From positions 1 through 64,000 of the forward strand of contig NZ_AUEY01000001.1 of assembly GCF_000426225.1 (NCBI RefSeq): a stretch of DNA of 64,000 nt, given 5' to 3'. A program made the position numbers and the translations under genes. The DNA is from Desulforegula conservatrix Mb1Pa. GTDB lineage: Bacteria; Desulfobacterota; Desulfobacteria; Desulfobacterales; Desulforegulaceae. Shown here one piece after another: positions 48,770-64,000 of the stretch (position 1 is the first letter of the stretch; the number at the start of each line of letters is the position of its first letter). The notes beneath the pieces are model-generated. The model was not told the origin of the DNA and searched no databases. It was given only the letters and a program-made list of their open reading frames with translations.

Positions 48770-49969
48770 TCACCATTTGGTTCCAATTCCAAATACAAGA
48801 GCGTAATTTGTCGTGTATGCCCCCTCTATGCTACCTGCCAAAGGAACATCCTGAACATTGAATCTGCCATCGCCAAACTGCACATAGGTTAAATCAAAGG
48901 ACAGACTTTTCCCCTTGCCGTATCTGTAATCAAATCCCATGCCTGCTCCCCATATCTGGTCTAAGCGCATGAATACGGTATGGTCTTCTTCATCCATTGG
49001 AGCAGAAACATAAAATGCTCCGCTCTGGAGTGTTATCTGGGATGAAAGTCTGTAGTTGACCCCAAGAGTTGCTGCCCACAGATCATTATAATCCGCAGGT
49101 CTTGTCGCTATACTGGAATCCCCGATCTCTACCTCTTCAAATCCGAAATCAGAAAAATCAACCCAGGCGACATCAAGAGAGAATGACCAGTCGTTCTGAA
49201 ATTCATGATAGATGCCCCCGGCAAGAACCTGTGGAGTGCCTGTATCAAAGGAAACATCCTGATTAAGGAGATGTCTCCTTTCTTCGGTTATGCCTGACAG
49301 ATCCGGGCTTCCGTCCATGCTGACCGAAACCTTTGATCTGTATACAAGGCCTAAGCGAGTCATTTTTGTCGGTTCGTATAGTATTCCAAGATTAACTCCA
49401 GCGCCCCATCCGTCTGCTTCAAGCTCAAATGAACCGTCACTGGTGTCTGCGCCATTGAAAATGGCTTTTTCCAGCGAGTACATGGAATACATAAGCGGGA
49501 TTGAGGCTCCTACGGAAAGCTTGTCGTTCACTCTATATGCGGCCGAAGGTGCAATTCCTGCAAAATTAAGAGACCATTCTTTAAGGAAATAACGGCCAAG
49601 CCAGTCGTTGTCGTATGATGCTCCAAGCCCTGCGACCGCGTTCGGCCCAACGCCTATGGCCCATTTCTTATCAATAGGCTGAATATATGAAAAACCAGGA
49701 GCCGGAATCACGGACTCATCACTCAATGACTGTTTGCGCCCTGTTTCGGTTTCAGTAATTTTAGTCTCGCTCTTCATATATACAACCATGGGACTTCCGT
49801 ATCCGCTTGCCTTCTTGAATCTCGTCATTCCGGCAGGATTGGTTACCACCGTTTCAGCAGTATCTGCGTTTGCGGTAACGCCTGCAAAACCAGGGCCTAA
49901 GGCGAATGACTCACTTGCTATTAAAGATACAAAAAGAGTAAAACCAGCGACAAAACCCAAAAACTTCAT
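48770..49969 (-). CDS. OmpP1/FadL/TodX family outer-membrane transporter
   Basis: A 399-residue outer-membrane channel for hydrophobic molecules such as fatty acids. Start at 49969 (MKFLGFVAGFTLFVSLIA) is supported by GGAGGAC upstream; earlier starts translate leader DNA. The signal is cleaved after ASESFA. The N-terminal plug follows as GPGFAGVTANADTAETVVTNPAGMTRFK, containing the NPAG-MT motif of the FadL family. The rest is alternating beta strands ending YALVFGIGTKW. It is downstream of and on the same strand as the TetR-controlled genes but lies outside any operator seen here. Confidence 0.9.
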   Translation of the reverse strand: MKFLGFVAGFTLFVSLIASESFALGPGFAGVTANADTAETVVTNPAGMTRFKKASGYGSPMVVYMKSETKITETETGRKQSLSDESVIPAPGFSYIQPIDKKWAIGVGPNAVAGLGASYDNDWLGRYFLKEWSLNFAGIAPSAAYRVNDKLSVGASIPLMYSMYSLEKAIFNGADTSDGSFELEADGWGAGVNLGILYEPTKMTRLGLVYRSKVSVSMDGSPDLSGITEERRHLLNQDVSFDTGTPQVLAGGIYHEFQNDWSFSLDVAWVDFSDFGFEEVEIGDSSIATRPADYNDLWAATLGVNYRLSSQITLQSGAFYVSAPMDEEDHTVFMRLDQIWGAGMGFDYRYGKGKSLSFDLTYVQFGDGRFNVQDVPLAGSIEGAYTTNYALVFGIGTKW

Positions 49970-50134
49970 CAGTCCTCCAGGAGCCAGAGCAATTCTTAAA
50001 AAAGGCTTCAAAACGATGCGCCAATGACTTTCAATCTGGCCATTTCCGGCAATGCTTGCACAATCAGAATAGTGCTTAACTAAATTAGCCAACAACTATC
50101 AGGTTAGCCTCTGTTTTCCATAGACAAACAAACA

Positions 50135-50575: not shown

Positions 50576-52030
50576 CTAAAAAATAAAACTCGCCCTCATG
50601 AATGTAAAATCCTTCTGATTGAACTGGCCAAAAAGATCGTTGAGCGTTCCTCCGTCATAAAAAAATGCGCCTACTGTAAGCTGGGACCAGCTTGAAGGCT
50701 TATAGGAAAGCTCAAGCTGATTCTGTCTGTCGTGGGTTCCGAGATAAGCCATTATTCTCCACATGGCATTAATTTTTGAATCAAATGCCGAATATTTCAA
50801 TGTAAAGGTAAGGCCCTGGCTGAGTTCTTCGGCATCGAGATAGTCCTTATGCTCCGGGATGAATTCTGCCACATACTGAATGTTCATGAAAAGATTCCTG
50901 AACAGAAGATCGTTTTTATCTATTCCAAAAAGAATCTGGCCCTTGTTCATTTCCTCTAAACCTTCAGGAAACCGGGCAAGAAGCATAGGGTCTAAAGCAT
51001 ATTTTACAGGAATGAATGCGCCCTCGCTTTGGTATGCAGCCTCTCCGCGCAGAACAAAATCGCCTGCAACCTTCTCGAAATCAGCGCCAAACACCACCGC
51101 AGTCGGATGATTATATGAAAGTTCGATGGGAGTTGGCGGGATTTCCATATAATAAGGAGGCTGGGCAATGGGCATCATGGTGGTAAACTTCGAAACCCTG
51201 AAACCAGGGGCCGGATCATGCCCGCGCCAGGCATAAAGCGAAACATCTGCGGTAGATACTGGAAATGCGAATTTCATTCCCATTGATGCATCATTTTTCC
51301 ATGTCCATTCCTCGTCCTCATCTACAATTCTGCCACCTGCGGCAGAAAATGAGGCAAGGCGCGGAGGCTCAAAGTACCCGCCCTTTTCCGGCATTTTTGA
51401 AGGATTGAAAACCGGAGACCAGAATGTTTCGATCCTTACTCCGCCATTAAAGGCGCCTTCGAGGAACAAACCCGGAAGTCCGGTCTTCCGATCATTTTTG
51501 TCGTAATAGAGGAATGTTGTCAGATCTTCCGGGGATACGCGGTCAATCGGCCGTATTTCATCGCCTTTACCCCAGTTTACTATTTTTCTGCCAATTGAAA
51601 AGGACATGGAATCAGTTCCATTTATATCCATATTAAGCTGGCCATATAGCTCCCTTAAATCAGCAGAAACTTCTTCATCCTGCTCAAGATTCTGATAATC
51701 ACTCCTGAATCTTCCAAGGAACTTAAAATTCGCGATATTTTTTTCAGCAAGAAGATCGAGCCTGTCGGTTGTTTTGAAATCATGGGGTTCCTTTAGTTCA
51801 TACCAGACAGAAGGTCTCAGTTCTCCCTCAAACTTGCCGCTGCCGCCTGATTCAATGTTGACCGTCTTTGCCGGTTTTGCATCAGCCTTTGATGTTTTTT
51901 CAAGCAAGGCGCCAAAATCTTCTTCATCACCGCCAGGTTCAGCTGCATAAACTGCGCATGGGAGCAAAACAAACAACATTATAAAAAGCAAAACCATCTT
52001 AACCGAATTTTTTCTACCATCTACTTCCAT
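50576..52030 (-). CDS. DUF1302-type outer-membrane barrel protein
   Basis: A 484-residue exported protein with signal peptide KMVLLFIMLFVLLPCAVYA. It is rich in beta strands and has FSIGRKIVNWGKGDEIRPIDRVSPEDLTTFLYYDKNDRKTG, typical of the DUF1302 family that occurs with RND exporters and LolA-like proteins. It ends DFTFMRASFIF with the terminal Phe of outer-membrane proteins. Its start overlaps the end of the LolA-like gene by 10 bases and uses GGGGGA as ribosome site, so the two are translationally coupled. It is the outer-membrane part of the export module. Confidence 0.85.
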   Translation of the reverse strand: MEVDGRKNSVKMVLLFIMLFVLLPCAVYAAEPGGDEEDFGALLEKTSKADAKPAKTVNIESGGSGKFEGELRPSVWYELKEPHDFKTTDRLDLLAEKNIANFKFLGRFRSDYQNLEQDEEVSADLRELYGQLNMDINGTDSMSFSIGRKIVNWGKGDEIRPIDRVSPEDLTTFLYYDKNDRKTGLPGLFLEGAFNGGVRIETFWSPVFNPSKMPEKGGYFEPPRLASFSAAGGRIVDEDEEWTWKNDASMGMKFAFPVSTADVSLYAWRGHDPAPGFRVSKFTTMMPIAQPPYYMEIPPTPIELSYNHPTAVVFGADFEKVAGDFVLRGEAAYQSEGAFIPVKYALDPMLLARFPEGLEEMNKGQILFGIDKNDLLFRNLFMNIQYVAEFIPEHKDYLDAEELSQGLTFTLKYSAFDSKINAMWRIMAYLGTHDRQNQLELSYKPSSWSQLTVGAFFYDGGTLNDLFGQFNQKDFTFMRASFIF

Positions 52031-52827
52031 GTTTCCCCCATCTTTTCCTTGTCAAAATCCGCAGAATTTATTCCTGAATCAACCTTTACGTCTGAAACTT
52101 CTATCAATGTGGAATGATTAGCCCTAAGATCCTTTGCCGCTGTTTTGAATGGAACATTGATTCCCTTAACATTCTTGATGTCTCCGGCCACAAGAACCCT
52201 TTCAAGAGTCCCTTCTTTCCCGAAAAATTTCACCTGAAGCGGAACAAACGAATTCTTGTCTATCCAGCTTATCTGCTTGGGATATTTGGCAGAGGCATCC
52301 TTTGAAACAGCCTCAACCTTGTAACAGTCTGTTCCGGAAAATGCGACGTCTGCCTTGCGCTCGTAATTATAGTCGTCAATCTTCCTGCCTCCGAGGTCTT
52401 CATTGCTGAAGTCCGTATCTTCGAATGCGTTCTGCCTGTCGTTGACGGCAATTTTTCTCGATCTGCCGAGGGAAGGGATATAAAGGTACTGGTCATTATC
52501 AGCACCCTGGTTTTCTATTGTCATGAAAGTCACGCCGCGTTTTGTGGAATCCATGAATCTCAATGCATAACGGTCTGTTGCTCCGTAATTTTTCTGGCGG
52601 ATCACGAGCTGACGTGTGTCGGTCTTTGAACCACCGGACATCAGATTCATAACGGCATTTATGGACAAATCCTGCTTTGGCCTGTTTGTTTCATCAACTT
52701 TTTCAGCAATGGCCCTGCCGTCTTCCTTTGCCTTTGCAGCGTCAAACTGCCCTGGTTCTCCCGCAAATACGCAACCAGCCATCAAAATACAAATCATCGC
52801 TTCCGCTAAAATTATCCTTCTAAGCAT
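52021..52827 (-). CDS. LolA-like outer-membrane lipoprotein-sorting protein
   Basis: A 268-residue periplasmic protein. Signal peptide MLRRIILAEAMICILMAGCVFA. The mature part matches the LolA-like family of RND operons: TRQLVIRQKNYGATDRYALRFMDSTKRGVTFMTIEN, DNDQYLYIPSLGRSRKIAVNDRQNAFEDTDFSNEDL and YPKQISWIDKNSFVPLQVKFF. Such proteins are thought to shuttle lipids between an RND exporter and an outer-membrane partner. GGGAGA precedes ATG. It lies between the RND gene and the DUF1302 barrel gene, the standard order of this module. Confidence 0.88.
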   Translation of the reverse strand: MLRRIILAEAMICILMAGCVFAGEPGQFDAAKAKEDGRAIAEKVDETNRPKQDLSINAVMNLMSGGSKTDTRQLVIRQKNYGATDRYALRFMDSTKRGVTFMTIENQGADNDQYLYIPSLGRSRKIAVNDRQNAFEDTDFSNEDLGGRKIDDYNYERKADVAFSGTDCYKVEAVSKDASAKYPKQISWIDKNSFVPLQVKFFGKEGTLERVLVAGDIKNVKGINVPFKTAAKDLRANHSTLIEVSDVKVDSGINSADFDKEKMGETWK

Positions 52828-53106: not shown

Positions 53107-56010
53107 CTATTCAGCCACCTGCCCTTCAACGCCTGACATGAATTCTTCATCCTGCGAATCCTTCGCAACCGTCTTTTCGGCAGTATAATGAAGCTTTGAT
53201 TCCACGAGGCTCAAAAACGCAGGAAGCAGAGTCATCGCAGCAAAAGCCGAGCTGATCATGGTCAGAGAGATAAGGATTCCGAGATTGACAAGGGGAACAA
53301 AAGCAGATGCAAGAAGCACTATAAATCCGGCTGCAACCGCCACTGCATTGAAAATTATGGCCTCACCAGAACCCGCAGCTGTTGCAAGGACAGCGGCTCC
53401 ATGATCAAGTCCCTGTTTCCTGAAATCCCGATAATGGACAAGATAGTGAATTCCGTAATCGACACCTATGCCTATGGCGACGCAGGCTGTTATGGATGTT
53501 GCTACATCAAGGGCAATATTGAAAAATCCCATGATCCCGAAATTGATCATTATGGTTACTGTCAGGGGAACAAGGCTGAAAAACCCGTAAATAAATGATC
53601 TCATGATCCATGCGACCACAAAAAAGACAAGCACTACTGAAACCACGATTGACCAGAGCTGGCCAGACACAACCAGCCTGTTTGCCTCAAGGTACATGGA
53701 GCCCGTGCCTGTGCATCTGAAGGTCATACCCTTGTCCCTGAGGGGCTTTCCCAATGGGCCGGAAAGAATGGACTCTACGTTTGCGGCAACCCTTTCCACG
53801 ACAGAGCTCGATGAAGTCCTCATCTGGACGGCAACAACCGTCTCTTTTTTTTCATTGTCAATCAGGCTTTTTGTGTCTTTTTTCTGATACTTGTCCATGT
53901 ATGCTTCGTACTGGGACTGAAGCGCGGCATGGCTTTTTTCACCAGAAAGATCATTTATTACGGGGAGCCTGTAATAAGCCGGATCATTATAAAAAAATGC
54001 CTGATTCATTTTCCTGATCAGATCCGCAATGCTTATGATCTTTCCGATTTCAGGATTTTCTTTAATCAATCGATCGGACAATTCTCCGATCACGGATACA
54101 ATTTGTGGATCAATGGCATCACCAGGCTTTTGACCTGTCATGACAACCGAAAAGCCAACTGTTCCAGCAAATGTGCTGTTCACAAAAGTATCAGCTATTC
54201 TGATCGGAGAGTCTTTCTTGAAAAAGGTGATATTGTTCATCTCGACCTTGAGCATGAAAAGCCCGGCTATCGAAATGGCAAGGATTATGGAATAAGCTGC
54301 AATGACAGTTTTGGGGCGATTAAAGCAGAATGATGACACAGCATTTACGATCCGGCTGTAAGCTTTTGGTGGAACATCAGCTTTTTTATCCAGATTCTTT
54401 ATATTTTGGGACTTTTTACCTTCCCCGAATCTGATCATCATGGATGGAACAAGATACATCGTGATCATCAAGGCGAAGACAACTCCCAGGGCCATGAATA
54501 TTCCGAAATCCCTTAAAGGAACTATCTTGTTTGTGGCAAGAGATGCAAAGCCTGCGACGGTGGTAAGCCCCGCCATCATGACGCCTTTTCCTGAAAGATC
54601 AAGGATGCGTTCGGCCTTCTGAATCTGGCTGCAGCCTGTTTCATCATAATGCTGAAAAGAATGGGTAAGATGAATGGCGTAAGCTGTGCCTACGGCAACA
54701 AGCAGCACTGGCAGCGCAGAAGCGACAACTGAAACAGGCGCGTCCGCGTATCCCATCGAGCCTGCGCACCATATGAGAGAAATCATGACCGTAAGAAGCG
54801 GATAAAACACTCCGGGCAGATTTCTGAACATGATGAAAAGAGAGGCCATCACTATAAGAGTCACGACGGGAAAGAGGCTCCTGATATCTTTGACCATAAG
54901 CTCTCCGATTTCATCATCCACAACAGGCTCGCCTGCGATATGATACTTAAAACCTGAATCCTTGAATACAGAACCAAGAATTCTTCTTATTTCGTCAAGC
55001 AGAAGAGCCTTGTTTGCCTTGTCGAGATTTGGCGCAGTCTTTACAAGAACAAGGGTGCTTTTTTCGTCTTCCGAGAAAAGCGTTCCCTTAAAAATTGACC
55101 AGGAATTAAGCCTTTGTTTGAGGCTCGCCAGAGCATTTTCATCTGACTGAAAAAGCCTTCCCGTCCGTATCTGTTTTGGAGCCTTTTGAATTGTTTCCGA
55201 AAGTTCCCGTGCAAAACTTTCGCCTGAATCCAAAGATATGGCGTTTGCAAGATTTGTATAAAAACCGTTTGTTGATCCAGCAGCCACAATTTCATTTCTT
55301 TGTGAGAAAATGAATCTTGAAATCGACGCAGGGTCTGCAATCCCTCTTTCAAGAAGAAGGCTGGAAAAGATTCGTGATGAGGAAACATCTTCAAATCCTT
55401 TTCCTTTAAAAAAGGCATCAATACTTTCAAATCCGTCAAACTCCGGCCAGACAGTATCTGTCTCCATTAATGACGATATTTGATCAACCCACACGCCTCT
55501 GTTAAACCCGCGTTTGTCTGTTGGTGCTGTAACGGCTGCTGCAAGTTTTCCTGCGATCCCAGGATCTTTTTTTATGGCAGAAGATACGGCTTCCGCAGTT
55601 TCTGAAACAAGAAGCTCTGTATCTCCAGAAGAAAGATATGACGGCAAAGACTCGGAAAGGGCCTCGGCGAGAGAACCTCTGTCAGACAGACTTGGCGTAT
55701 CTAACTTGAAAGCTTTCCCCTCTTCCTTTGACCGGTTCCGGAGATATGATGTGAGGACAAGAGCCTGGGTGTCTCCTAATGGAACAAGTTCTTTTATGCT
55801 GTTTGCCGGAATCTGCTGATTGGCTCTTAAAATCAGATCCCCGGCAGTTTTTATTCTTTGCAGCAGATCTTTATCGTAAATGCCTTTTTCAGTCTCAATG
55901 GCAATAACAACTCCGGTTGATGATCCGAATTTTTCCTGGGCATCAAGAAAAAACGTCTTTGCATCGTTTTCATCAGGCAGCATGAACATTATGTCGTTTT
56001 CAATCCTCAA
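53107..56010 (-). CDS. RND-superfamily (MMPL-type) exporter, 5' end interrupted by an amber codon
   Basis: The open frame codes for 967 residues with two repeats of a periplasmic domain and several membrane helices (LFPVVTLIVMASLFIMFRNL, ALPVLLVAVGTAYAIHLTHSF, SLVPLTVTIMINFGIMGFFNIALDVATSITACVAIGIGVDYGIHYLVHYRDF). GIGVDYGIHYLVHYR is the SSD/MMPL-type motif of lipid-exporting RND proteins. As written it lacks TM1: the in-frame sequence before it (56068-56127) reads MRMKEKQLSSLIVPLARRF, TAG, LLVTAFAVLTGILIYGTG. So the real start was probably 56127, and the gene is either a recent pseudogene, read through, or restarted at TTG 56010. It is the pump of the LolA/DUF1302 module. Confidence 0.85.
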   Translation of the reverse strand: MRIENDIMFMLPDENDAKTFFLDAQEKFGSSTGVVIAIETEKGIYDKDLLQRIKTAGDLILRANQQIPANSIKELVPLGDTQALVLTSYLRNRSKEEGKAFKLDTPSLSDRGSLAEALSESLPSYLSSGDTELLVSETAEAVSSAIKKDPGIAGKLAAAVTAPTDKRGFNRGVWVDQISSLMETDTVWPEFDGFESIDAFFKGKGFEDVSSSRIFSSLLLERGIADPASISRFIFSQRNEIVAAGSTNGFYTNLANAISLDSGESFARELSETIQKAPKQIRTGRLFQSDENALASLKQRLNSWSIFKGTLFSEDEKSTLVLVKTAPNLDKANKALLLDEIRRILGSVFKDSGFKYHIAGEPVVDDEIGELMVKDIRSLFPVVTLIVMASLFIMFRNLPGVFYPLLTVMISLIWCAGSMGYADAPVSVVASALPVLLVAVGTAYAIHLTHSFQHYDETGCSQIQKAERILDLSGKGVMMAGLTTVAGFASLATNKIVPLRDFGIFMALGVVFALMITMYLVPSMMIRFGEGKKSQNIKNLDKKADVPPKAYSRIVNAVSSFCFNRPKTVIAAYSIILAISIAGLFMLKVEMNNITFFKKDSPIRIADTFVNSTFAGTVGFSVVMTGQKPGDAIDPQIVSVIGELSDRLIKENPEIGKIISIADLIRKMNQAFFYNDPAYYRLPVINDLSGEKSHAALQSQYEAYMDKYQKKDTKSLIDNEKKETVVAVQMRTSSSSVVERVAANVESILSGPLGKPLRDKGMTFRCTGTGSMYLEANRLVVSGQLWSIVVSVVLVFFVVAWIMRSFIYGFFSLVPLTVTIMINFGIMGFFNIALDVATSITACVAIGIGVDYGIHYLVHYRDFRKQGLDHGAAVLATAAGSGEAIIFNAVAVAAGFIVLLASAFVPLVNLGILISLTMISSAFAAMTLLPAFLSLVESKLHYTAEKTVAKDSQDEEFMSGVEGQVAE

Positions 56011-56067
56011 GCGTCCTGTTCCGTAGATCAGAATTCCTGTCAGGACAGCAAAAGCAGTAACAAGAAG

Positions 56068-56127
56068 CTAGAATCTCCTGGCCAAAGGCACAATCAGGCT
56101 GGAAAGTTGTTTTTCTTTCATTCTCAT
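56068..56127 (-). pseudogene. N-terminal segment of the RND exporter cut off by in-frame TAG
   Basis: ATG at 56127 (or 56121) opens MRMKEKQLSSLIVPLARRF; the TAG stop is codon 20 from 56127, at 56068-56070. The next codons, still in frame, encode LLVTAFAVLTGILIYGTG, a clear first membrane helix that is followed without a break by the rest of the protein. The only later start before the visible frame is TTG 56010, which loses the helix. Confidence 0.75.
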
Positions 56128-56153: not shown

Positions 56154-56173
56154 ATGACTGACTCATCAGTCAT
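56154..56173. promoter_or_regulatory. TetR operator upstream of the RND gene
   Basis: ATGACTGACTCATCAGTCAT: 8-bp arms ATGACTGA and TCAGTCAT around a 4-bp spacer. It lies 27 bp upstream of the ATG at 56127. It matches the sites at 57421, 57457 and 58101. Confidence 0.8.
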
Positions 56174-56243
56174 GTACTGCTTCAAAAAAACCGATTCAAA
56201 TGCATAGCCTGCATAGAACCGGATTAAGTTTGTGGATCTATTC

Positions 56244-57389
56244 CTATTCTATCTTCTCTATCTTCAGAACCCTTGAGAGAGTTATAGCGCACATCGATAT
56301 TCCCGCGCTGAAAAGGGCTCCCATTTTTGCAGCTCCCTGGACATCCCCGGTAAAAGCCTGACCAGCGACAAATAGAGCCACAGTAAGTCCTAATGCAGCA
56401 ACGTTGGCAGCTACAAAAAGCGATCTTGAATCCATTCTGTCCGGCAATGGAAACCCCATGGCCATTCCAATTCTGCCAAGAATAAATATTCCGAACGTCT
56501 TTCCTATCAGAAGAGAGCAGAATACAAGCCAGGTCGCAGTGGAAATTCTGGCAAACTCAACACCTGCGTTAGAAATTCCAAAAAACAGGAGGCCGAAATC
56601 TACGATTGTTTTCCAGTCATGCTCAAAGCTGGCCATTGTTGAATGATCATCTTTGACTTCTTCGAATATTTCCCCTGTTGATTTCACAGGCCAGGGCATG
56701 AAAGGAACTATAAAAACAAGGGCAAGAGCAGGATGCATATGGGCTTTGAAAAGACCTGCCCAAGCTGGCACCCCTCCACAGATAAGATATGCCCAGTAGC
56801 TTCTGATATTGAATCTTCTGAGCATATAGGCGATGCAAATTCCCGCCAGAAGCAACAAAAGCCATAAAGGAGCGACAGGGTTATTCAGATCAGGATAGAA
56901 TATTGCGATGATTAAAAGGCCTATGCCGTCATCAGCGATTGCAAGAAGCAGAAGAAAAGATACGGCTGGATGCCCTGCTCCGAATATGAAACGGGCAAGC
57001 AGCCATGCAAGGGCAATATCTGTTGCGGTCGGAATCCCCCATCCATTTGCAAGATCCGATGATCCTATGAAATAATTTAGAGTGACATAAACAATGGCAG
57101 GCCCGATAACTCCACCAAACGTCGACATTATGGGATTTATTGCTTTTCTGACCGGATTCAGATTGCCACCGGGAAGAAAGCTTTTGGTGATCTCAATTGC
57201 GGCCATGGCAAAGAAAAACACCATAAAAATGTCATTTACTAAAAAATGGAAATCAAGCCCCCAGAGCCATTTACTTTCATTAATATGATGATAGGTATCA
57301 GGCGAAACATTGGCCCAGATCAGACCTATTACCACACCTGAAATCAGCGGGATTGAGAACTCCCTTAAAAGATTGATGGTCTTTTGCAT
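56244..57389 (-). CDS. nhaA: Na+/H+ antiporter NhaA
   Basis: A 381-residue inner-membrane antiporter that expels Na+ or Li+ in exchange for protons. The family landmarks are NDIFMVFFFAMAAIEI, GWGIPTATDIALAWLLA and LLLLAIADDGIGLLIIAIFY, with the two essential Asp in ADDG. PVSFLLL-type and GVEFARISTATWLVF helices complete the fold. AGGGAACAG lies before ATG. Two operators at 57421-57440 and 57457-57476 lie between it and tetR, so it appears to be under TetR control with the RND exporter. Confidence 0.94.
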   Translation of the reverse strand: MQKTINLLREFSIPLISGVVIGLIWANVSPDTYHHINESKWLWGLDFHFLVNDIFMVFFFAMAAIEITKSFLPGGNLNPVRKAINPIMSTFGGVIGPAIVYVTLNYFIGSSDLANGWGIPTATDIALAWLLARFIFGAGHPAVSFLLLLAIADDGIGLLIIAIFYPDLNNPVAPLWLLLLLAGICIAYMLRRFNIRSYWAYLICGGVPAWAGLFKAHMHPALALVFIVPFMPWPVKSTGEIFEEVKDDHSTMASFEHDWKTIVDFGLLFFGISNAGVEFARISTATWLVFCSLLIGKTFGIFILGRIGMAMGFPLPDRMDSRSLFVAANVAALGLTVALFVAGQAFTGDVQGAAKMGALFSAGISMCAITLSRVLKIEKIE

Positions 57390-57420
57390 TCTGTTCCCTT
57401 TGAAAATTTGCGCTCATTTT

Positions 57421-57440
57421 ATGACTGACAGATCAGTCAT
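57421..57440. promoter_or_regulatory. TetR operator upstream of nhaA, site 1
   Basis: ATGACTGACAGATCAGTCAT, 8-bp perfect arms with spacer CAGA, 31 bp before the nhaA start. Confidence 0.8.
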
Positions 57441-57456
57441 ATACATTATCAAAAAA

Positions 57457-57476
57457 ATAACTGACAAATCAGTCAT
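57457..57476. promoter_or_regulatory. TetR operator upstream of nhaA, site 2
   Basis: ATAACTGACAAATCAGTCAT, one mismatch in the left arm, spacer CAAA. Site centres of 1 and 2 are 36 bp apart. Site 2 lies between nhaA and the end of tetR. Confidence 0.75.
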
Positions 57477-57499
57477 CAATCATCCTTAAAAAAGATCTT

Positions 57500-58120
57500 C
57501 TATTTTCTGATTGAAAGTCCGTTAAGAATAAAATCCGTCATGTCACTGGCTATTTTTTCCACATCAAGCTCTTTCAAAACAAGCATGAAAAAGAAAAAGC
57601 TGCGCTCGACTAGTCCAACAATAAACACAGCCGCTGTTTCGGGATCAGATGCTTCGATCATTCCTCTGCCCCTGCTGTTTTCTAATCTTGTCGCAAGAAG
57701 TCTGATGAACTGAACGATCAGATCCTCATACAGTTCCTTAAAAAGACCTCCGTGTCCTATCCCCTCTCTTAAAACAATTTCAGCAGCTTCCGAATCCCTT
57801 GCAAAGACCTCAAGTGCACCCTTGATTATGGATTTAATTTTGGATTCAAGTTCTTCCTTGGAAGAAGCCTCAAAAAGATCACTATCAGCATCAAGAAGTC
57901 CCTGGAATTTAACCATGAAGCCTTTGCATATCTGGCGTGCAATTTCGTCCTTGGAAGGAAAATACAGATAGAAAGTACCCTGGGCAACTCCGGCAGCAGA
58001 AACAATATCCGATACCCTGGTTTTCTGGAATCCTTTCTCCCTGAAAACCTTTATGGCGGCATCGAATATCGCCTGTCTGGTGTTTGATTTATCCGATGTA
58101 TTGACTGACATATCAGTCAT
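57500..58120 (-). CDS. TetR-family transcriptional repressor
   Basis: A 206-residue regulator. The N-terminal helix-turn-helix is RQAIFDAAIKVFREKGFQKTRVSDIVSAAGVAQGTFYLYFPSKDEIA, a clear TetR_N domain; the C-terminal helical part binds an unknown ligand. The start at 58120 lies within an operator, so its first codons (MTDMSV) are encoded by the palindrome itself, and repression of its own transcription is expected. Identical operators precede nhaA and the RND exporter gene, all on the same strand. Confidence 0.93.
   Translation of the reverse strand: MTDMSVNTSDKSNTRQAIFDAAIKVFREKGFQKTRVSDIVSAAGVAQGTFYLYFPSKDEIARQICKGFMVKFQGLLDADSDLFEASSKEELESKIKSIIKGALEVFARDSEAAEIVLREGIGHGGLFKELYEDLIVQFIRLLATRLENSRGRGMIEASDPETAAVFIVGLVERSFFFFMLVLKELDVEKIASDMTDFILNGLSIRK
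58101..58120. promoter_or_regulatory. TetR operator overlapping the tetR start codon
   Basis: TTGACTGACATATCAGTCAT, spacer CATA. Its right end is the start codon itself (58118-58120 on the minus strand), so a bound repressor would block transcription at the beginning of the gene. Confidence 0.75.
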
Positions 58121-58301
58121 ATAAAATTATAAGAGTCATGCTGTCAAGAACTATATTTTTTATAATGGGAATGCAATTCAGGGCATAAGCTAAAAAGCAT
58201 ACTTCACATCGCCATAGTTTGAATGTTTCGAGATCACGCCCAGCTTTGTTTCTGAAACGACCCGCGAGTTGCCAAAAAATATTTTTTTACTACGAATCCA
58301 T

Positions 58302-58530: not shown

Positions 58531-59907
58531 TTAGGCTTTAAGGTGTTCCGGCACAATAACCATTTTAAGAAGAAGGGGTTTCAGAAAGCTCCATCTTATC
58601 CCGATTTTATAGATTTCCTCCATATCACGGATGGCATCCCAGCAGTTATGGCAGGGGGCGATCACAAATTTTGCACCAGTTGCAAGGATCTGATCACGTT
58701 TTACGGTCAACGCTATATTTCGTTCCTTTCTATATTTACCTATGCCGTTGAATCCACCGCCTCCGCCGCAGCAGAAATTATGTTCCCTGCACGGCTTCAT
58801 TTCCCTGAAATCCTCTGCGATATGGCTCATGATGATTCTTGCGTGGTCAGAAAGCCCCCCGTTTCGGATATAATTACATGAATCCTGATATGTTACAGGC
58901 TCCTTGATTTTTTTGGACGGATCGAGCTTCAGTTTGCCGGACTCGAGAGCGTCCGCCACCCATTCCACATAGTGGAAAGACTCCACTGGGGGTTCCCCTG
59001 TTTCGTATCCGGCCCAATATGGCCCTTCAATTACCGTGGCGCGGTAGGCATGACCGCATTCGGTTACGACCATTTTTTTGGGACTAAGGCGTTTCATGGC
59101 GGCATAGATAGTATCAACCTGAAGCTTGCAGGCGGCCCAGTCGCCCGCGAACATGGCGAGACTGGTTTCCTCCCATCCTACGCTCGGCACTGTCCAGTTT
59201 TCACCTGCGATGTGAAACAAAATGGCGGCCTCGGCGATATCTTCTGGATAATGCTTTGGCTCCCTGGCATTGACCGTGTACATGATGTCCGTGCCTTCCT
59301 TGTCGATAGGGATTTCCAGTCCTGGCCATTCTTCCTCGTTTTCCTCAACCATCCACTGACAGCTGTCCACCCAGTCCTCGGACGTGACATCCATCTGCGC
59401 CTGATATATCCTGTGCATGCCAGCGCCGATCTTCATTTCCCAAGGCACAAAACCCTGGGAAAAGCATAGCCCCCTCAAATATCCGTTCATGACCCCTGTG
59501 TCTATGCCAAACGGGCAATACATGGCGCAACGGTTGCAGTTGGTGCATTTTGACCATGCGGTATCCATCACCATACGCATGAAGTCGTTATCCACTTTCC
59601 CTTTCCGTCTGATGATTTCGCCTAGTGTGGATTGAATCTTGTAAGAAGGAACCTGTTTGGGATCTCTGTTGTTGGCAAGGTACAAAAAACATGATTCTGC
59701 GCAAAGCCCGCAGTGAGAGCATATTTTCAGCCAGGTTTTCATCCTGGATCTGCATGTTTTCCGGATTGTTTCCCATAATGCTTCATGATCAACATCGAGG
59801 TTTTTCATCTCCTCGTAATATTGTTTCCCGCTCTTGTCGGCCAGCAAGGCCTGAAGTTCCCCAAGAGTTTCCACAGGCTTTTTATTGCAAAGTTTTCCTT
59901 CAGGCAT
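58531..59907 (-). CDS. hmcF: HmcF-like iron-sulfur protein of the Hmc redox complex
   Basis: A 458-residue cytoplasmic-face protein related to the catalytic part of heterodisulfide reductase. Two ferredoxin motifs are [11 protein letters not shown] and [14 protein letters not shown]. The C-terminal half has the CCG domain ([23 protein letters not shown]), with a partially degenerate first CCG region (VTECGHAY). In Hmc it accepts electrons that have crossed the membrane and hands them to a cytoplasmic partner. TmcB of the related Tmc complex is the alternative; the A-to-F gene order favours Hmc. It is the last gene of the operon, 74 bp after hmcE. Confidence 0.9.
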
Positions 59908-59936
59908 AATTTATATTTTCCCCGAACTTATCTAAG

Positions 59937-59981
59937 TTGACGACACGGCCAAAGCAGGTATCGTTTTGAAGGCGAATTGAA
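59937..59981. repeat. Diverged end of the 8369-type element inside the hmc operon
   Basis: TTGACGACACGGCCAAAGCA, GGTATCGTTTTGAAGGCGAA resembles 8449-8496 (GACGACGCAGGCAACACAGG, TATCGCTTGAATGCGGATGG). It lies between hmcE and hmcF. Confidence 0.4.
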
Positions 59982-60656
59982 TTACCAGGACAGATTCTTC
60001 TTCATCCCCCCACGCTTTATTCCGAAATCCATGCCTATCTGAGCCCTGGACATAAAAAACAGAACAAAATGGGACAGTTTGGTGAATGGTATTGCAATCA
60101 GCATGATTTCCCCGGAAAGGACATGGGCAACTATCCAGAACCTGTAATTTGAAACCTGATGATAGGCAAGCATTCCGGTTATGAAAGGCGCTGCCGAAAT
60201 TGCTATCAGAAGATAATCATATGCGCTGGTTATGAATCTGACATGTTCAAGGGCAATTCTTCTGATAATAAGGAAAACGGCCGAAACAATCACGGCAAGA
60301 GTCAGAATATCTGCGTAGAAATCTGAAATGGTGAACAGACTGAATCCCCACCTTTCCCTCAGAATAAGATTATGGGCCTGCAAAAAAATCGGTGTGATCA
60401 CCAGACCTATATGAAAAACAAATATAAAACAGGTAAAAACAGGGTTATTTCTCCAGCTTCGTGTGCCGTAAGGGAACAGCCAGAATAAAACTGAGCGCAA
60501 AGCTCCTTTTAAACCAAATGGGATATGCTGGGTATAGGCGACCCTGTCCTGTTTCCAGTCAAGTCCCTTGATATATTGCACAATATGAAAAATCACGCCT
60601 ATAAGGAAAACTGAAAAAGAAAGCCATAAAAGAGGGCCGGTGACAAATTGATACAT
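59982..60656 (-). CDS. hmcE: HmcE-like cytochrome b (NarI-type) membrane subunit
   Basis: A 224-residue membrane protein with five to six helices, like NarI and DsrM. Helices are PLLWLSFSVFLIGVIFHIVQYI, PVFTCFIFVFHIGLVITPIFL, YADILTLAVIVSAVFLIIRRI, YDYLLIAISAAPFITGMLAY and VAHVLSGEIMLIAIPFTKLSHFVLFF, and conserved His in them can ligate b hemes. Start at 60656 (MYQFVTGPLL) has AAAGGA upstream; the longer start reaches into hmcD. It passes electrons between the membrane and HmcF. Confidence 0.88.
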   Translation of the reverse strand: MYQFVTGPLLWLSFSVFLIGVIFHIVQYIKGLDWKQDRVAYTQHIPFGLKGALRSVLFWLFPYGTRSWRNNPVFTCFIFVFHIGLVITPIFLQAHNLILRERWGFSLFTISDFYADILTLAVIVSAVFLIIRRIALEHVRFITSAYDYLLIAISAAPFITGMLAYHQVSNYRFWIVAHVLSGEIMLIAIPFTKLSHFVLFFMSRAQIGMDFGIKRGGMKKNLSW

Positions 60657-60666
60657 ATTTTTTCCT

Positions 60667-60861
60667 TTAGTAATGACCTTTATAGTGTTCGTGATGCTCG
60701 TCCGAATGAGCATCTGGATGAAAATGGTGATCGCCCGTTTTTTCGTCTTCCCTTCCGTTCAAGAATCTCCAGAAAAGAACAAAACCAACCAGAAATAAAG
60801 GTATCAGCAGATACGTGATGCCTTCTGTTCTCGCCATATATTCCTGCAAAGTATAAATCAT
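60667..60861 (-). CDS. hmcD: HmcD-like small membrane subunit
   Basis: A 64-residue protein with one membrane helix (GITYLLIPLFLVGFVLFWRFL) and a His/Asp-rich tail (DHHFHPDAHSDEHHEHYKGHY). Position and size equal HmcD of the Hmc complex, whose role is structural or unknown. The start region is duplicated: a 23-nt near copy of the sequence around its ATG also lies directly after hmcC (61236-61258). The His-rich tail could bind metal. Confidence 0.8.
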   Translation of the reverse strand: MIYTLQEYMARTEGITYLLIPLFLVGFVLFWRFLNGREDEKTGDHHFHPDAHSDEHHEHYKGHY

Positions 60862-61258
60862 ATTGTTTGGCTATGTCCCTCTAAATGTTGAAAACTAAAA
60901 AGATATACGGTTTCTTATTTGCAGAAGAATCCAGCTCAATTTATAGGCGCATGATTTTTGGGAACTTTTTGTAAAAAGTCTGCTCCCTCAAAACTTCATG
61001 GTTTAACTTTTTCGGCTCAGATGGCTCTACAATTTACCCTGCCATGCCATAATACCTAAAAGTTTTTGCGGAGCTTTTTTCAAAAAGCGACCCGCCGGAG
61101 GCACTCGCTTCAGCCACTTAAAGATAACCCAAACGGTCTGAGACAAATACTTAATTAGTTTAGGGCCTCAAAATTGCCTCCCCGGAGGCACACGCTTCTG
61201 GTGCGCAAGCCTTAGAGCTTGAGCACCCTACGAATCTGCATAATATAAATCATATTGT
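60844..61258. repeat. Insertion in the hmc operon: bipartite repeat flanked by a 23-nt duplication
   Basis: Flanks 60844-60866 and 61236-61258 share 21 of 23 bases (CTGCA-N3-TATAAATCATATTGT) and cover the hmcD start. Between them are half X (60958-60990, degenerate), half Y (61058-61106), a palindrome TGCCTCCCCGGAGGCA (61175-61190) and CCGGAGGCAC(A/T)CGCTT repeated at both Y and the palindrome. So a ~390-bp insertion separates hmcC from hmcD. Confidence 0.7.
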
Positions 61259-61266
61259 GTTCAGCT

Positions 61267-62442
61267 TTAATGTTCTTCAGGGTAGTCAGGATGCTCATAA
61301 AAAATCGGCATTCTGGTGACTATAAACCTGAAGACAAGAATCCCAAGTGTAACTATGAACAAGGAGATCCCGATTTCCATCCAATGAGGGAAATATCTTT
61401 CATTTGACGGAAGATGCCAATTAAAGGCAACCAGGGATACATTAAAACGATTCAGAATAATTCCGAGAACTGCCAGAAGAGATGTCCATTTGATCAGTTT
61501 AAGATTCCTGTCCCTGACTCCGATGGCATACAAAAGGCAAGGAAGAGCGACAAATCCTAAAAGCTCCACCAGAAACCATATGCCGTAAGGCGTTGCAAGA
61601 AGATGCCAGTTGTCTCCGGCAGAAACGCCGATAACCTTTATGGCAAAATATCCGGCAAGAACAACTGAGGCAGCCTTTCCAAATCCCAGTATGAGCTGAT
61701 CTTTTCCTGCTATATGGGCAGAGTCCATCTTGTCTATGAAAAACCTGCTCGAAAGAGAGCTTTCAAATATCACCATGGAAAGCCCGGCAACAATGCTTGA
61801 AATAAAGAAAAATACAGGCAGGTATGGAGAATACCAGAGCGGATGGAGCTTGGACGGCGCTATCAAAAAAAGGGCTCCGAGCGAAGACTGGTGGAGGGTG
61901 GAGAGGATCACGCCGAAAATGGTCAGCACTATTGTCAGATTTACAGCCAGTTTGCGGGCCTTTTTCAGTCCGAGCCATTCCAGAGCAGCAGGAGAGAATT
62001 CAAGGAACAGGACTGTCAGATACAAAGACACACAGGCTGCGACTTCAAACAGAAGTGACGTTGTTCCGCTTTGCATAATAAACGGATATGGAAGCCGCCA
62101 CGGCCTTCCCACGTCATAGGTCAGGGCTATAACTACGAAAAGATACCCCAGAAATCCGGTAAGCACGGCAGGCCGGACAGCAAAATGAAATCTTTTTAAT
62201 CCGAAAATATATACGGCCGCAGAAGTGACATACCCGCCAGCGGCAAGCGCGACCCCCACCAGCAGGTCAAAACCGATCCATATTCCCCAGGGATTATAAT
62301 CTGAAAGATTTGTTACGGCACCGAGTCCTTTTGTGAAACGGATTACAGTAATAATCAACCCCATCAGAACTATTATTCCGGAAACAATATTAAATGGAGT
62401 AAACAACCTCTTTTCTGGTGCAATAATGGCAATTTCGTCCAT
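61267..62442 (-). CDS. hmcC: HmcC-like NrfD-family membrane subunit
   Basis: A 391-residue integral membrane protein of the NrfD/PsrC family with about ten helices; it binds or exchanges electrons with quinone-type carriers and anchors HmcB. Landmarks are PFNIVSGIIVLMGLIITVIRFTKGLG, WGIWIGFDLLVGVALAAGGYVTSAAVYIFG, DVGRPWRLPYPFIMQSGTTSLLFEVA and SSLGALFLIAPSKLHPLWYS. Its ATG overlaps the hmcB stop (TGATG), so the two are translationally coupled. The hmcD gene would have followed about 20 bp after its stop before the insertion. Confidence 0.92.
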   Translation of the reverse strand: MDEIAIIAPEKRLFTPFNIVSGIIVLMGLIITVIRFTKGLGAVTNLSDYNPWGIWIGFDLLVGVALAAGGYVTSAAVYIFGLKRFHFAVRPAVLTGFLGYLFVVIALTYDVGRPWRLPYPFIMQSGTTSLLFEVAACVSLYLTVLFLEFSPAALEWLGLKKARKLAVNLTIVLTIFGVILSTLHQSSLGALFLIAPSKLHPLWYSPYLPVFFFISSIVAGLSMVIFESSLSSRFFIDKMDSAHIAGKDQLILGFGKAASVVLAGYFAIKVIGVSAGDNWHLLATPYGIWFLVELLGFVALPCLLYAIGVRDRNLKLIKWTSLLAVLGIILNRFNVSLVAFNWHLPSNERYFPHWMEIGISLFIVTLGILVFRFIVTRMPIFYEHPDYPEEH

Positions 62443-63497
62443 CAGGCAGCCTCCTCTGTATTGGCTTTGACGGCATTGTCGACCGCACTTTTGACAGCTT
62501 TTTCAACGATTTCTTCTTGCTCTTTTTCAGCTTTTGCAAGAGCCTCACCGATCTTTAATTCCGCGACTGCCTTAGTCGCTTTAATAGCTGAATTGACTGC
62601 CTGATTTTTTTCTTCGTTTTCAATTTTCTCTTTTCTCTTTGTAATGGCATATACCCCGGTCAGCAGAACAGGCCAGAGAGCCGCCACCATCGGAACCACG
62701 CTCAAAGCGCCGGAAGTAAGTTCAGGAGCTGGTTTTATTCCCAGATCCTCGCGCATACCGATCTTTTGAAAAGCAACTCCTGACAGATACATCCAGCTCG
62801 TTCCGCCCATTTCATGCTCGCCATAGATATGATCCACATAATTTTTCGGATATCTGGCTATACGATTACGGGCTATTTTAATCAGATCATCGCGTTTCCC
62901 AAAAACAAGAGCCTCCCTTGGGCAGGACTCAACACACCCCGGCAGCTTCCCCTCCAGGATTCTGGGCTGGCACATGGTGCATTTTACCACTTTGGGAGAA
63001 AGTGCATTGTCATATTCATAGGCTGGGATGTCAAAAGGACAGGCCATCATGCAGTATCTGCATCCAACGCATACACTTGCATCATATGTCACTGCTCCGG
63101 TCTTTGTTTTTTTGAATGCCTTTACAAAACATGCGGATGCACAGGCAGGTTCGAGACAGTGGTTGCACTGGGTTTTATTGAATACTGGCGCGATGCCGTC
63201 CTTCGCACGATCATGACGGTTTACCACTGTATAGGCTTTTGCAGTTGTTCTCCGTTTCTTATCCAATACCGAGGCATCGGAAAAAGGCTGATCAGGCTCT
63301 GGGAGATCATTGACCTTGTTACATGCCTCTTCACACTGCCTGCATCCGACACACCGAACCGAGTCATGTAATACGGCAAAGCTTTCTGGATAACCGGTAA
63401 AATGTTTATTAGAAGCAGCAAACACCGAGTTGCTCACGGCTGTACCAACTCCAGCCGAGCCTATCAATCCAAGAAATTTTCTTCGTGAAATGGACAT
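62442..63497 (-). CDS. hmcB: HmcB-like periplasmic-side ferredoxin subunit with Tat signal
   Basis: A 351-residue iron-sulfur protein. The Tat signal [12 protein letters not shown] supports the start at 63497, with GAGGT seven bases upstream; the ATG at 63533, overlapping the hmcA stop, is the alternative. Four cysteine clusters follow: [35 protein letters not shown] and [20 protein letters not shown], enough for four [4Fe-4S] centres. A C-terminal membrane helix ([19 protein letters not shown]) and a Glu/Lys-rich coil close the protein. It links the multiheme cytochrome HmcA to HmcC. Confidence 0.92.
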
Positions 63498-63532
63498 TTT
63501 TAATACCTCAAAAGATTCAGCCTTTAGTATCA

Positions 63533-64000
63533 TTATTTTTTCGGTTCATGCGCTTTTTCCTTGTGACAGTCTGTGCATGAAACAGGTTTTTCCATTCCCA
63601 TTTCCTTATGACAGCCCATGCATTGCAAGTGATATGCCCCCATTAAGCCAATTTTAAACGAACCCTTATCCTGAGCCTGCTTTACATGACAGCTTACGCA
63701 TCTCGGCGGCTGTTTGCCAGGAGGAGTATTGTGATGGCATCCCTGGCAGATCGTGCCTTTTTCAGCATGGAAATAACTGGCTAATTTATTGTTATTAATA
63801 TTGTTAACAAGCGCCTTAACGATCTTCCGATGCGGGAATTCAACGGGTTCGTATTTATTCGATAAATCCTTGATTAGTATTTTCTCGGGAATATCTTCAT
63901 CATTATATGTGGCGGTAATCGGAGTCCTTGACTTCAGCATCATCTCGGCAAGCCTGGCTGATTTGTCAGTTTTCGACTTGTGAGACGTAGTTGCTTCCTT
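63533..64000 (-). CDS. hmcA: HmcA-like multiheme cytochrome c, C-terminal part (truncated by window edge)
   Basis: The frame is open to the window edge, so only the C-terminal ~155 residues are seen; the ATG at 63943 is internal. Four heme-binding motifs are visible: CQGCH, CVSCH, CMGCH and CTDCH, with FPHRK and YFHAEKG supplying distal His as in class III cytochromes. [20 protein letters not shown] is like the last heme domain of HmcA. HmcA takes electrons from periplasmic hydrogenases or cytochrome c3. It overlaps hmcB as TAATG if the longer hmcB start is used. Confidence 0.9.

Follow-up and report, generated by a model that had tools for sequence, protein, structure and literature searches.

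TetR control of an RND pump is a classical arrangement. In AcrR-AcrAB and MtrR-MtrCDE a local TetR repressor acts through palindromic operators on an RND pump of the HAE1 type, which works with an adaptor and a TolC channel. TetR-family FadR proteins of Bacillus and Sulfolobus (3whb, 5gp9, 6en8) likewise combine palindromic operators with few genomic targets, which belong to beta-oxidation. FadRSa has four genomic sites, and even known FadRs lack homology to one another in the pocket residues that contact the ligand (PMC6449355). Among exporters, AmeABCD of Castellaniella defragrans consists of an HAE3 RND protein, a DUF1302 protein, a LolA-superfamily DUF1329 protein and the YCF48-like protein AmeC, and provides monoterpene tolerance; it exports apolar monoterpenes, and an envelope-spanning export of hydrophobes was proposed for it (PMC6394551).

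The DNA analysed here, a stretch of 64,000 nucleotides from Desulforegula conservatrix (the window), carries on its minus strand a tetR gene, nhaA and an exporter operon. The operon encodes an RND (HAE3/MMPL) exporter (53107..56127, from ATG 56127; MMPL, E=3e-51), a LolA_like periplasmic carrier of 268 aa (52021..52827; PF17131, E=5e-47; solved relatives 9tp6, 3bk5, 4z48 and 3buu) and a DUF1302 outer-membrane barrel of 484 aa (50576..52030; PF06980, E=9e-19). As in AmeABCD, an RND protein, here HAE3-like by a best model score below the curated cut-off, is encoded together with DUF1302 and a periplasmic LolA-superfamily protein, and the export route suggested below is modelled on the same proposal. 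The two systems differ in gene order (RND-LolA-DUF1302 in the window), in the length of the RND protein, which is greater in the window, and in the dedicated TetR of the window. Since no YCF48-like gene is found among the listed ORFs of the operon, and PF17131 stands in place of DUF1329 (the DUF1329 model scores the LolA_like protein at 19.1 bits, below its cut-off of 23.1), we regard the window exporter as an analogue of AmeABCD and not, by these features, as a member. The locus shares with AcrR-AcrAB and MtrR-MtrCDE the local TetR, the palindromic operators and the RND pump as target; it departs from them in its HAE3/MMPL, LolA and DUF1302 components and in the inclusion of nhaA. A search of open-access literature turned up no description of this pairing of TetR and exporter. 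What is new lies in the targets, in the operator shared across the order and in the insertion of nhaA.

Two neighbouring regions carry further genes of interest. Just downstream of DUF1302 lies a gene for a FadL/OMPP1-family outer-membrane protein (48770-50095), which has no operator and was left out of the regulon. On the other side of tetR, the minus strand at 58531-63943 encodes a Fe-S/CCG-type protein, a NarI-like cytochrome b, an NrfD-like membrane protein, a ferredoxin-like protein and a multihaem cytochrome; read from translations only, this cluster looks like a membrane redox complex of sulfate reducers.

Operators and regulator at the locus

The first-pass annotation had reported four palindromes, and all four are present, at 56154, 57421, 57457 and 58101. 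Over the 16 specified bases of ATGACTGA-N4-TCAGTCAT, the copies at 56154 and 57421 match exactly, and those at 57457 (ATAACTGA...) and 58101 (TTGACTGA...) carry one mismatch each. The inner pattern TGACTGA-N4-TCAGTCA, at 56155, 57422, 57458 and 58102, is perfect in three copies and has one mismatch in the remaining one. Operator O1 (58101..58120), a motif match, lies over the start region of tetR. Upstream of nhaA, O2 (57457..57476; one mismatch) covers the predicted -35 and O3 (57421..57440), 36 bp from O2, covers the predicted -10 and start. O4 (56154..56173), again a motif match, lies upstream of the RND gene. When up to three mismatches are allowed, the window holds 5 matches against 0.28 expected from dinucleotide shuffles, none of which gave as many as 5.

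We scanned the genome (4.47 Mb in 178 contigs) for the operator. All three perfect sites and one 1-mismatch site of the inner pattern fall in the cluster, and just one further site with at most one mismatch exists genome-wide, at C23:46299. The C23:46299 site lies within the coding sequence of an ABC transporter and breaks the spacer rule described below, and was rejected as a regulon member. With two mismatches the genome yields 16 matches compared with 14 for a reversed control pattern, which is background. Because this level is at background and the fifth site sits inside an ABC-transporter gene, the four sites appear to make up the whole regulon in the assembled genome, and the predicted TetR and operator regulon is local.

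The operator itself can be defined more closely. Among 81 non-redundant sites, 79 have a pyrimidine at the first base of the spacer and a purine at the fourth, a rule that was no part of the search pattern that collected them; the operator is therefore better written TGACTGAY-NN-RTCAGTCA. It is similar to the B. subtilis FadR operator, TGAATGA-N4-TCATTCA.

The tetR gene (57500..58120, minus strand; TetR_N PF00440, E=8e-17) encodes 206 aa when read from ATG 58120. Relatives conserve a different start, ATG 58111 (MSVNT...), at the centre of the operator, and this central ATG lies inside the operator in the window and in 7/7 relatives compared. A putative tetR promoter (58119..58147, minus strand) consists of TTGACA, a 17-nt spacer and a weak A+T-rich -10 that runs into O1. 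Among eight loci compared, TTGACA stands about 17 nt before a weak -10 entering the operator in six (the window, L044, L045, L046, L104 and L106) and is absent upstream of the operator at L126 and L134. A generic sigma-70 scan of the region gave matches no more numerous than in shuffles, and the promoter placement therefore rests on the comparison across relatives. This arrangement predicts that the tetR transcript begins at or beside the central ATG, as a leaderless message that TetR itself could block.

In a phmmer search the FadR structures 1vi0 and 3whb were among the closest solved structures by sequence, and the AlphaFold model of TetR (pLDDT 84.5) gave FadR proteins as its best Foldseek matches, so that FadR is the closest fold and among the closest sequences. 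As TetR comes closest to the acyl-CoA-sensing FadR, we take it to be a repressor whose action a lipid-like ligand would relieve. The identity to FadR is only about 25%, too low to establish the ligand; proteins of the TetR fold commonly bind unrelated ligands. The curated FadR model NF053878 scores TetR at 59.6 bits, below its cut-off of 200; since TetR does not reach this cut-off and the ligand-contact residues are not common to all FadRs, we treat acyl-CoA sensing as a hypothesis. The predicted targets also set it apart, being export genes where those of FadR belong to beta-oxidation.

Conservation across the Desulfobacterales

Of 389 Desulfobacterales genomes, 35, among them that of the window, encode a relative of the window TetR at E <= 1e-25. 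The motif is present in all 34 of the other TetR-bearing genomes, with a mean of 3.4 sites compared with 0.56 for the reversed control, and 34 TetR-free genomes have a mean of 0.5 sites (Mann-Whitney p = 4e-11, species relatedness ignored). The contrast between TetR-bearing and TetR-free genomes, the shuffles, the genome-wide counts and the spacer rule led us to reject chance as the origin of the palindromes. Two perfect sites with an identical spacer (TGACTGACCGGTCAGTCA) were also seen at G067:C28:66693 and G140:C31:1127, in two genomes of one family that have no close TetR relative.

At the loci of Desulfobotulus alkaliphilus (L044), one Desulfobacterales MAG (L045), a further Desulfobotulus-group genome (L104) and family f29 (e.g. 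L118-L121 and L129-L133), RND, LolA_like and DUF1302 stand in line behind tetR, without nhaA. At most of these loci one operator lies at tetR or upstream of it and a second one precedes RND. L130 and L131 have only the first of these, and their tetR-RND gap holds no recognisable site with up to two mismatches. A T-run or hairpin directly before the RND operator, as in the window, is found in several relatives. In most of family f59, tetR adjoins a ParA-like gene and other unrelated genes, and several of these tetR genes have no recognisable operator (<=2 mismatches). Operators, usually paired, lie elsewhere in the f59 genomes between divergent RND operons, one of which continues with LolA_like and DUF1302; these trans sites indicate that the same regulator points to the same kind of exporter, adjacent or not. 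One f59 locus (L199:1-2716) has its divergent RND pair near AMP-ligase-like, methyltransferase-like and type III PKS-like genes, neighbours whose translations, the sole basis here, suggest a phenolic lipid product.

The motif is thus kept at tetR and before RND in several family groups. What is conserved as its predicted target is an RND exporter of the HAE3/MMPL type, accompanied by LolA_like and in most cases by DUF1302. TetR, operator and hydrophobe exporter form a real, well conserved unit, whose function and signal we infer. One signal had appeared to be shared by TetR, NhaA, RND, LolA-like and DUF1302; this stands for TetR, RND, LolA_like and DUF1302, and nhaA falls outside the conserved unit.

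Our main reading, with a probability of about 0.8, is a local autoregulated repressor regulon in which the FadR-like TetR would control tetR, nhaA and RND-LolA-DUF1302 through O1-O4. A TetR dimer would recognise TGACTGAY-NN-RTCAGTCA over the tetR start region (O1), in O2 and O3 over the nhaA promoter and in O4 before the RND operon, holding tetR, nhaA and the exporter operon off until a hydrophobic ligand, most likely fatty-acyl or hydrocarbon-derived, releases it. The HAE3 RND protein would then take the hydrophobe from the inner membrane and deliver it to the periplasmic LolA-like carrier, from which it would pass to the DUF1302 barrel in the outer membrane.

The RND frame and its in-frame stop codon

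The RND protein scores best with TIGR00921 (HAE3), at 229.5 bits with a cut-off of 351.9; we call it HAE3-like, as it stays short of that curated threshold. Its frame, 1006 codons from ATG 56127, is homologous along its length to uninterrupted relatives and is itself interrupted by an in-frame TAG (56068-56070, minus strand) in the first membrane helix, which the first-pass annotation had missed. At this position relatives have Arg (CGG/CGC/CGA) or Trp (TGG). Decoding of the TAG as pyrrolysine is unsupported: the genome has no PylS_Nterm, and its weak PylS_Cterm matches stay far below the cut-off, at a level also seen in 12 ordinary control genomes.

Given the in-frame TAG and a search that found no pyrrolysine system, the pump in the Desulforegula genome has probably been cut short or has recently become a pseudogene, if the base was read correctly. 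Suppression of the codon, or an error in the sequence, would spare RND output, which is otherwise probably lost or diminished, and the regulon may no longer deliver export in this genome. Taken further, the exporter would be a pseudogene and the operators decaying relics, working at most for tetR autoregulation and perhaps for control of nhaA. We consider this possible, at clearly less than even odds. Besides the TAG, it draws on the starts available before the first conserved block: past the TAG there is no ATG or GTG and a single TTG, at 56010, and a protein begun there would lack the first membrane helix. However, the remaining RND frame runs to its end without a further stop, O4, LolA_like and DUF1302 are intact, and in a draft genome one stop may go back to an error in sequencing or to a mutation of very recent date.

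nhaA and masD as possible targets

The nhaA gene (56244..57389, minus strand) lies between tetR and the exporter operon and encodes a Na+/H+ antiporter of 381 aa (Na_H_antiport_1 PF06965, E=2e-55). The catalytic Asp pair of E. coli NhaA is D163/D164, accompanied by K300, and alignment to 1zcd showed that the equivalents of all three are kept. The curated model TIGR00773 scores the protein at 132.7 bits, below its cut-off of 254; we classify it by this score as a divergent NhaA subtype, with the aspartate pair and lysine kept. A predicted intrinsic terminator (56184..56222, minus strand) follows nhaA directly before the RND operator, with a hairpin of -14.6 kcal/mol (z = -4.3) and then U7.

This NhaA type was confined to the Desulforegula genome among the four genomes compared first and, at 1e-40, has no match in any other of the 389 genomes of the order. 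Within the Desulforegula genome there is a paralogue at G000:C26:39171, 75% identical and without an operator, and a distant homologue on C11. No nhaA lies near tetR at any other TetR locus retrieved. With nhaA missing at those loci and its type found in no other sampled genome, we interpret nhaA as having inserted between tetR and the pump specifically in this lineage, and it was rejected as a conserved regulon member of the order. The coupling of NhaA with an RND/LolA/DUF1302 module is not supported as a general one: in the sequence it is real, and it is unique to the Desulforegula lineage. By inserting between tetR and the pump, nhaA would have come under the same operator. As O4 and the terminator still stand before RND, the nhaA sites are not simply a displaced RND operator; they may have come into being along with the insertion or go back to an ancestral pair like the one in L045.

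O2 and O3 could instead be bystanders, remnants of the ancestral tetR-RND intergenic region behind which nhaA merely landed, so that TetR would control only itself and the pump. The two operators between tetR and RND in L045 fit this account, as does the status of nhaA as an insertion with an operator-free paralogue elsewhere. We nevertheless judge it unlikely: O2 and O3 cover a promoter-like stretch directly before nhaA, O3 is placed relative to its putative -10 as O1 is at tetR, and repression of nhaA would follow, whatever the origin of the operators, if TetR binds O2 and O3. Some TetR-family members activate transcription, but TetR as an activator or dual regulator in place of a simple repressor is improbable here, as the operators cover predicted promoter elements and the start of tetR and nhaA, the usual repressor geometry.

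Under the repressor reading, the nature of the signal is addressed by a further set of sites. In three relatives the operator lies roughly 200-450 bp upstream of a gene for a MasD-type alkane-activating enzyme. In a Desulfobacteraceae MAG (L046) it stands between tetR and masD (L046:10914-13511), whose product, the catalytic subunit of (1-methylalkyl)succinate synthase, scores 1235 bits against 9o8u. In two f59 genomes (L151 and L153) operator pairs lie upstream of masD, a glycyl radical enzyme gene. Twelve genomes have both TetR and MasD; operators are near masD in these three, and none were found in the larger regions fetched around masD in the other nine. The masD link is therefore occasional, and masD as a general target is unsupported. 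With FadR as the nearest relative in sequence and fold and the operator upstream of masD in three relatives, the data point to a lipid or hydrocarbon signal; the response to membrane-active or ion-gradient stress suggested at first is a hypothesis.

We offer a broader picture tentatively, and with more doubt than confidence. The FadR-like TetR and operator of the Desulfobacterales would constitute a hydrophobe-response regulon joining the HAE3/LolA/DUF1302 exporter to hydrocarbon metabolism, responding to an alkane-derived or fatty acyl signal. In some members it would also control masD, which adds n-alkanes to fumarate, and TetR would then regulate how alkanes are activated anaerobically. NhaA would have joined in one lineage only and would protect the proton gradient in solvent-like stress.

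The analysis takes a motif from a single genome to a predicted regulon common to dozens of sulfate-reducing bacteria, and the precise operator, TGACTGAY-NN-RTCAGTCA, with its defined targets makes that prediction testable. It gives a handle on the cargo and the trigger of RND/LolA/DUF1302 exporters, which are poorly understood. The nhaA insertion would be a clean case of a gene captured by a pre-existing operator, and the masD cases suggest, in a form open to testing, how the anaerobic activation of alkanes may be switched on.
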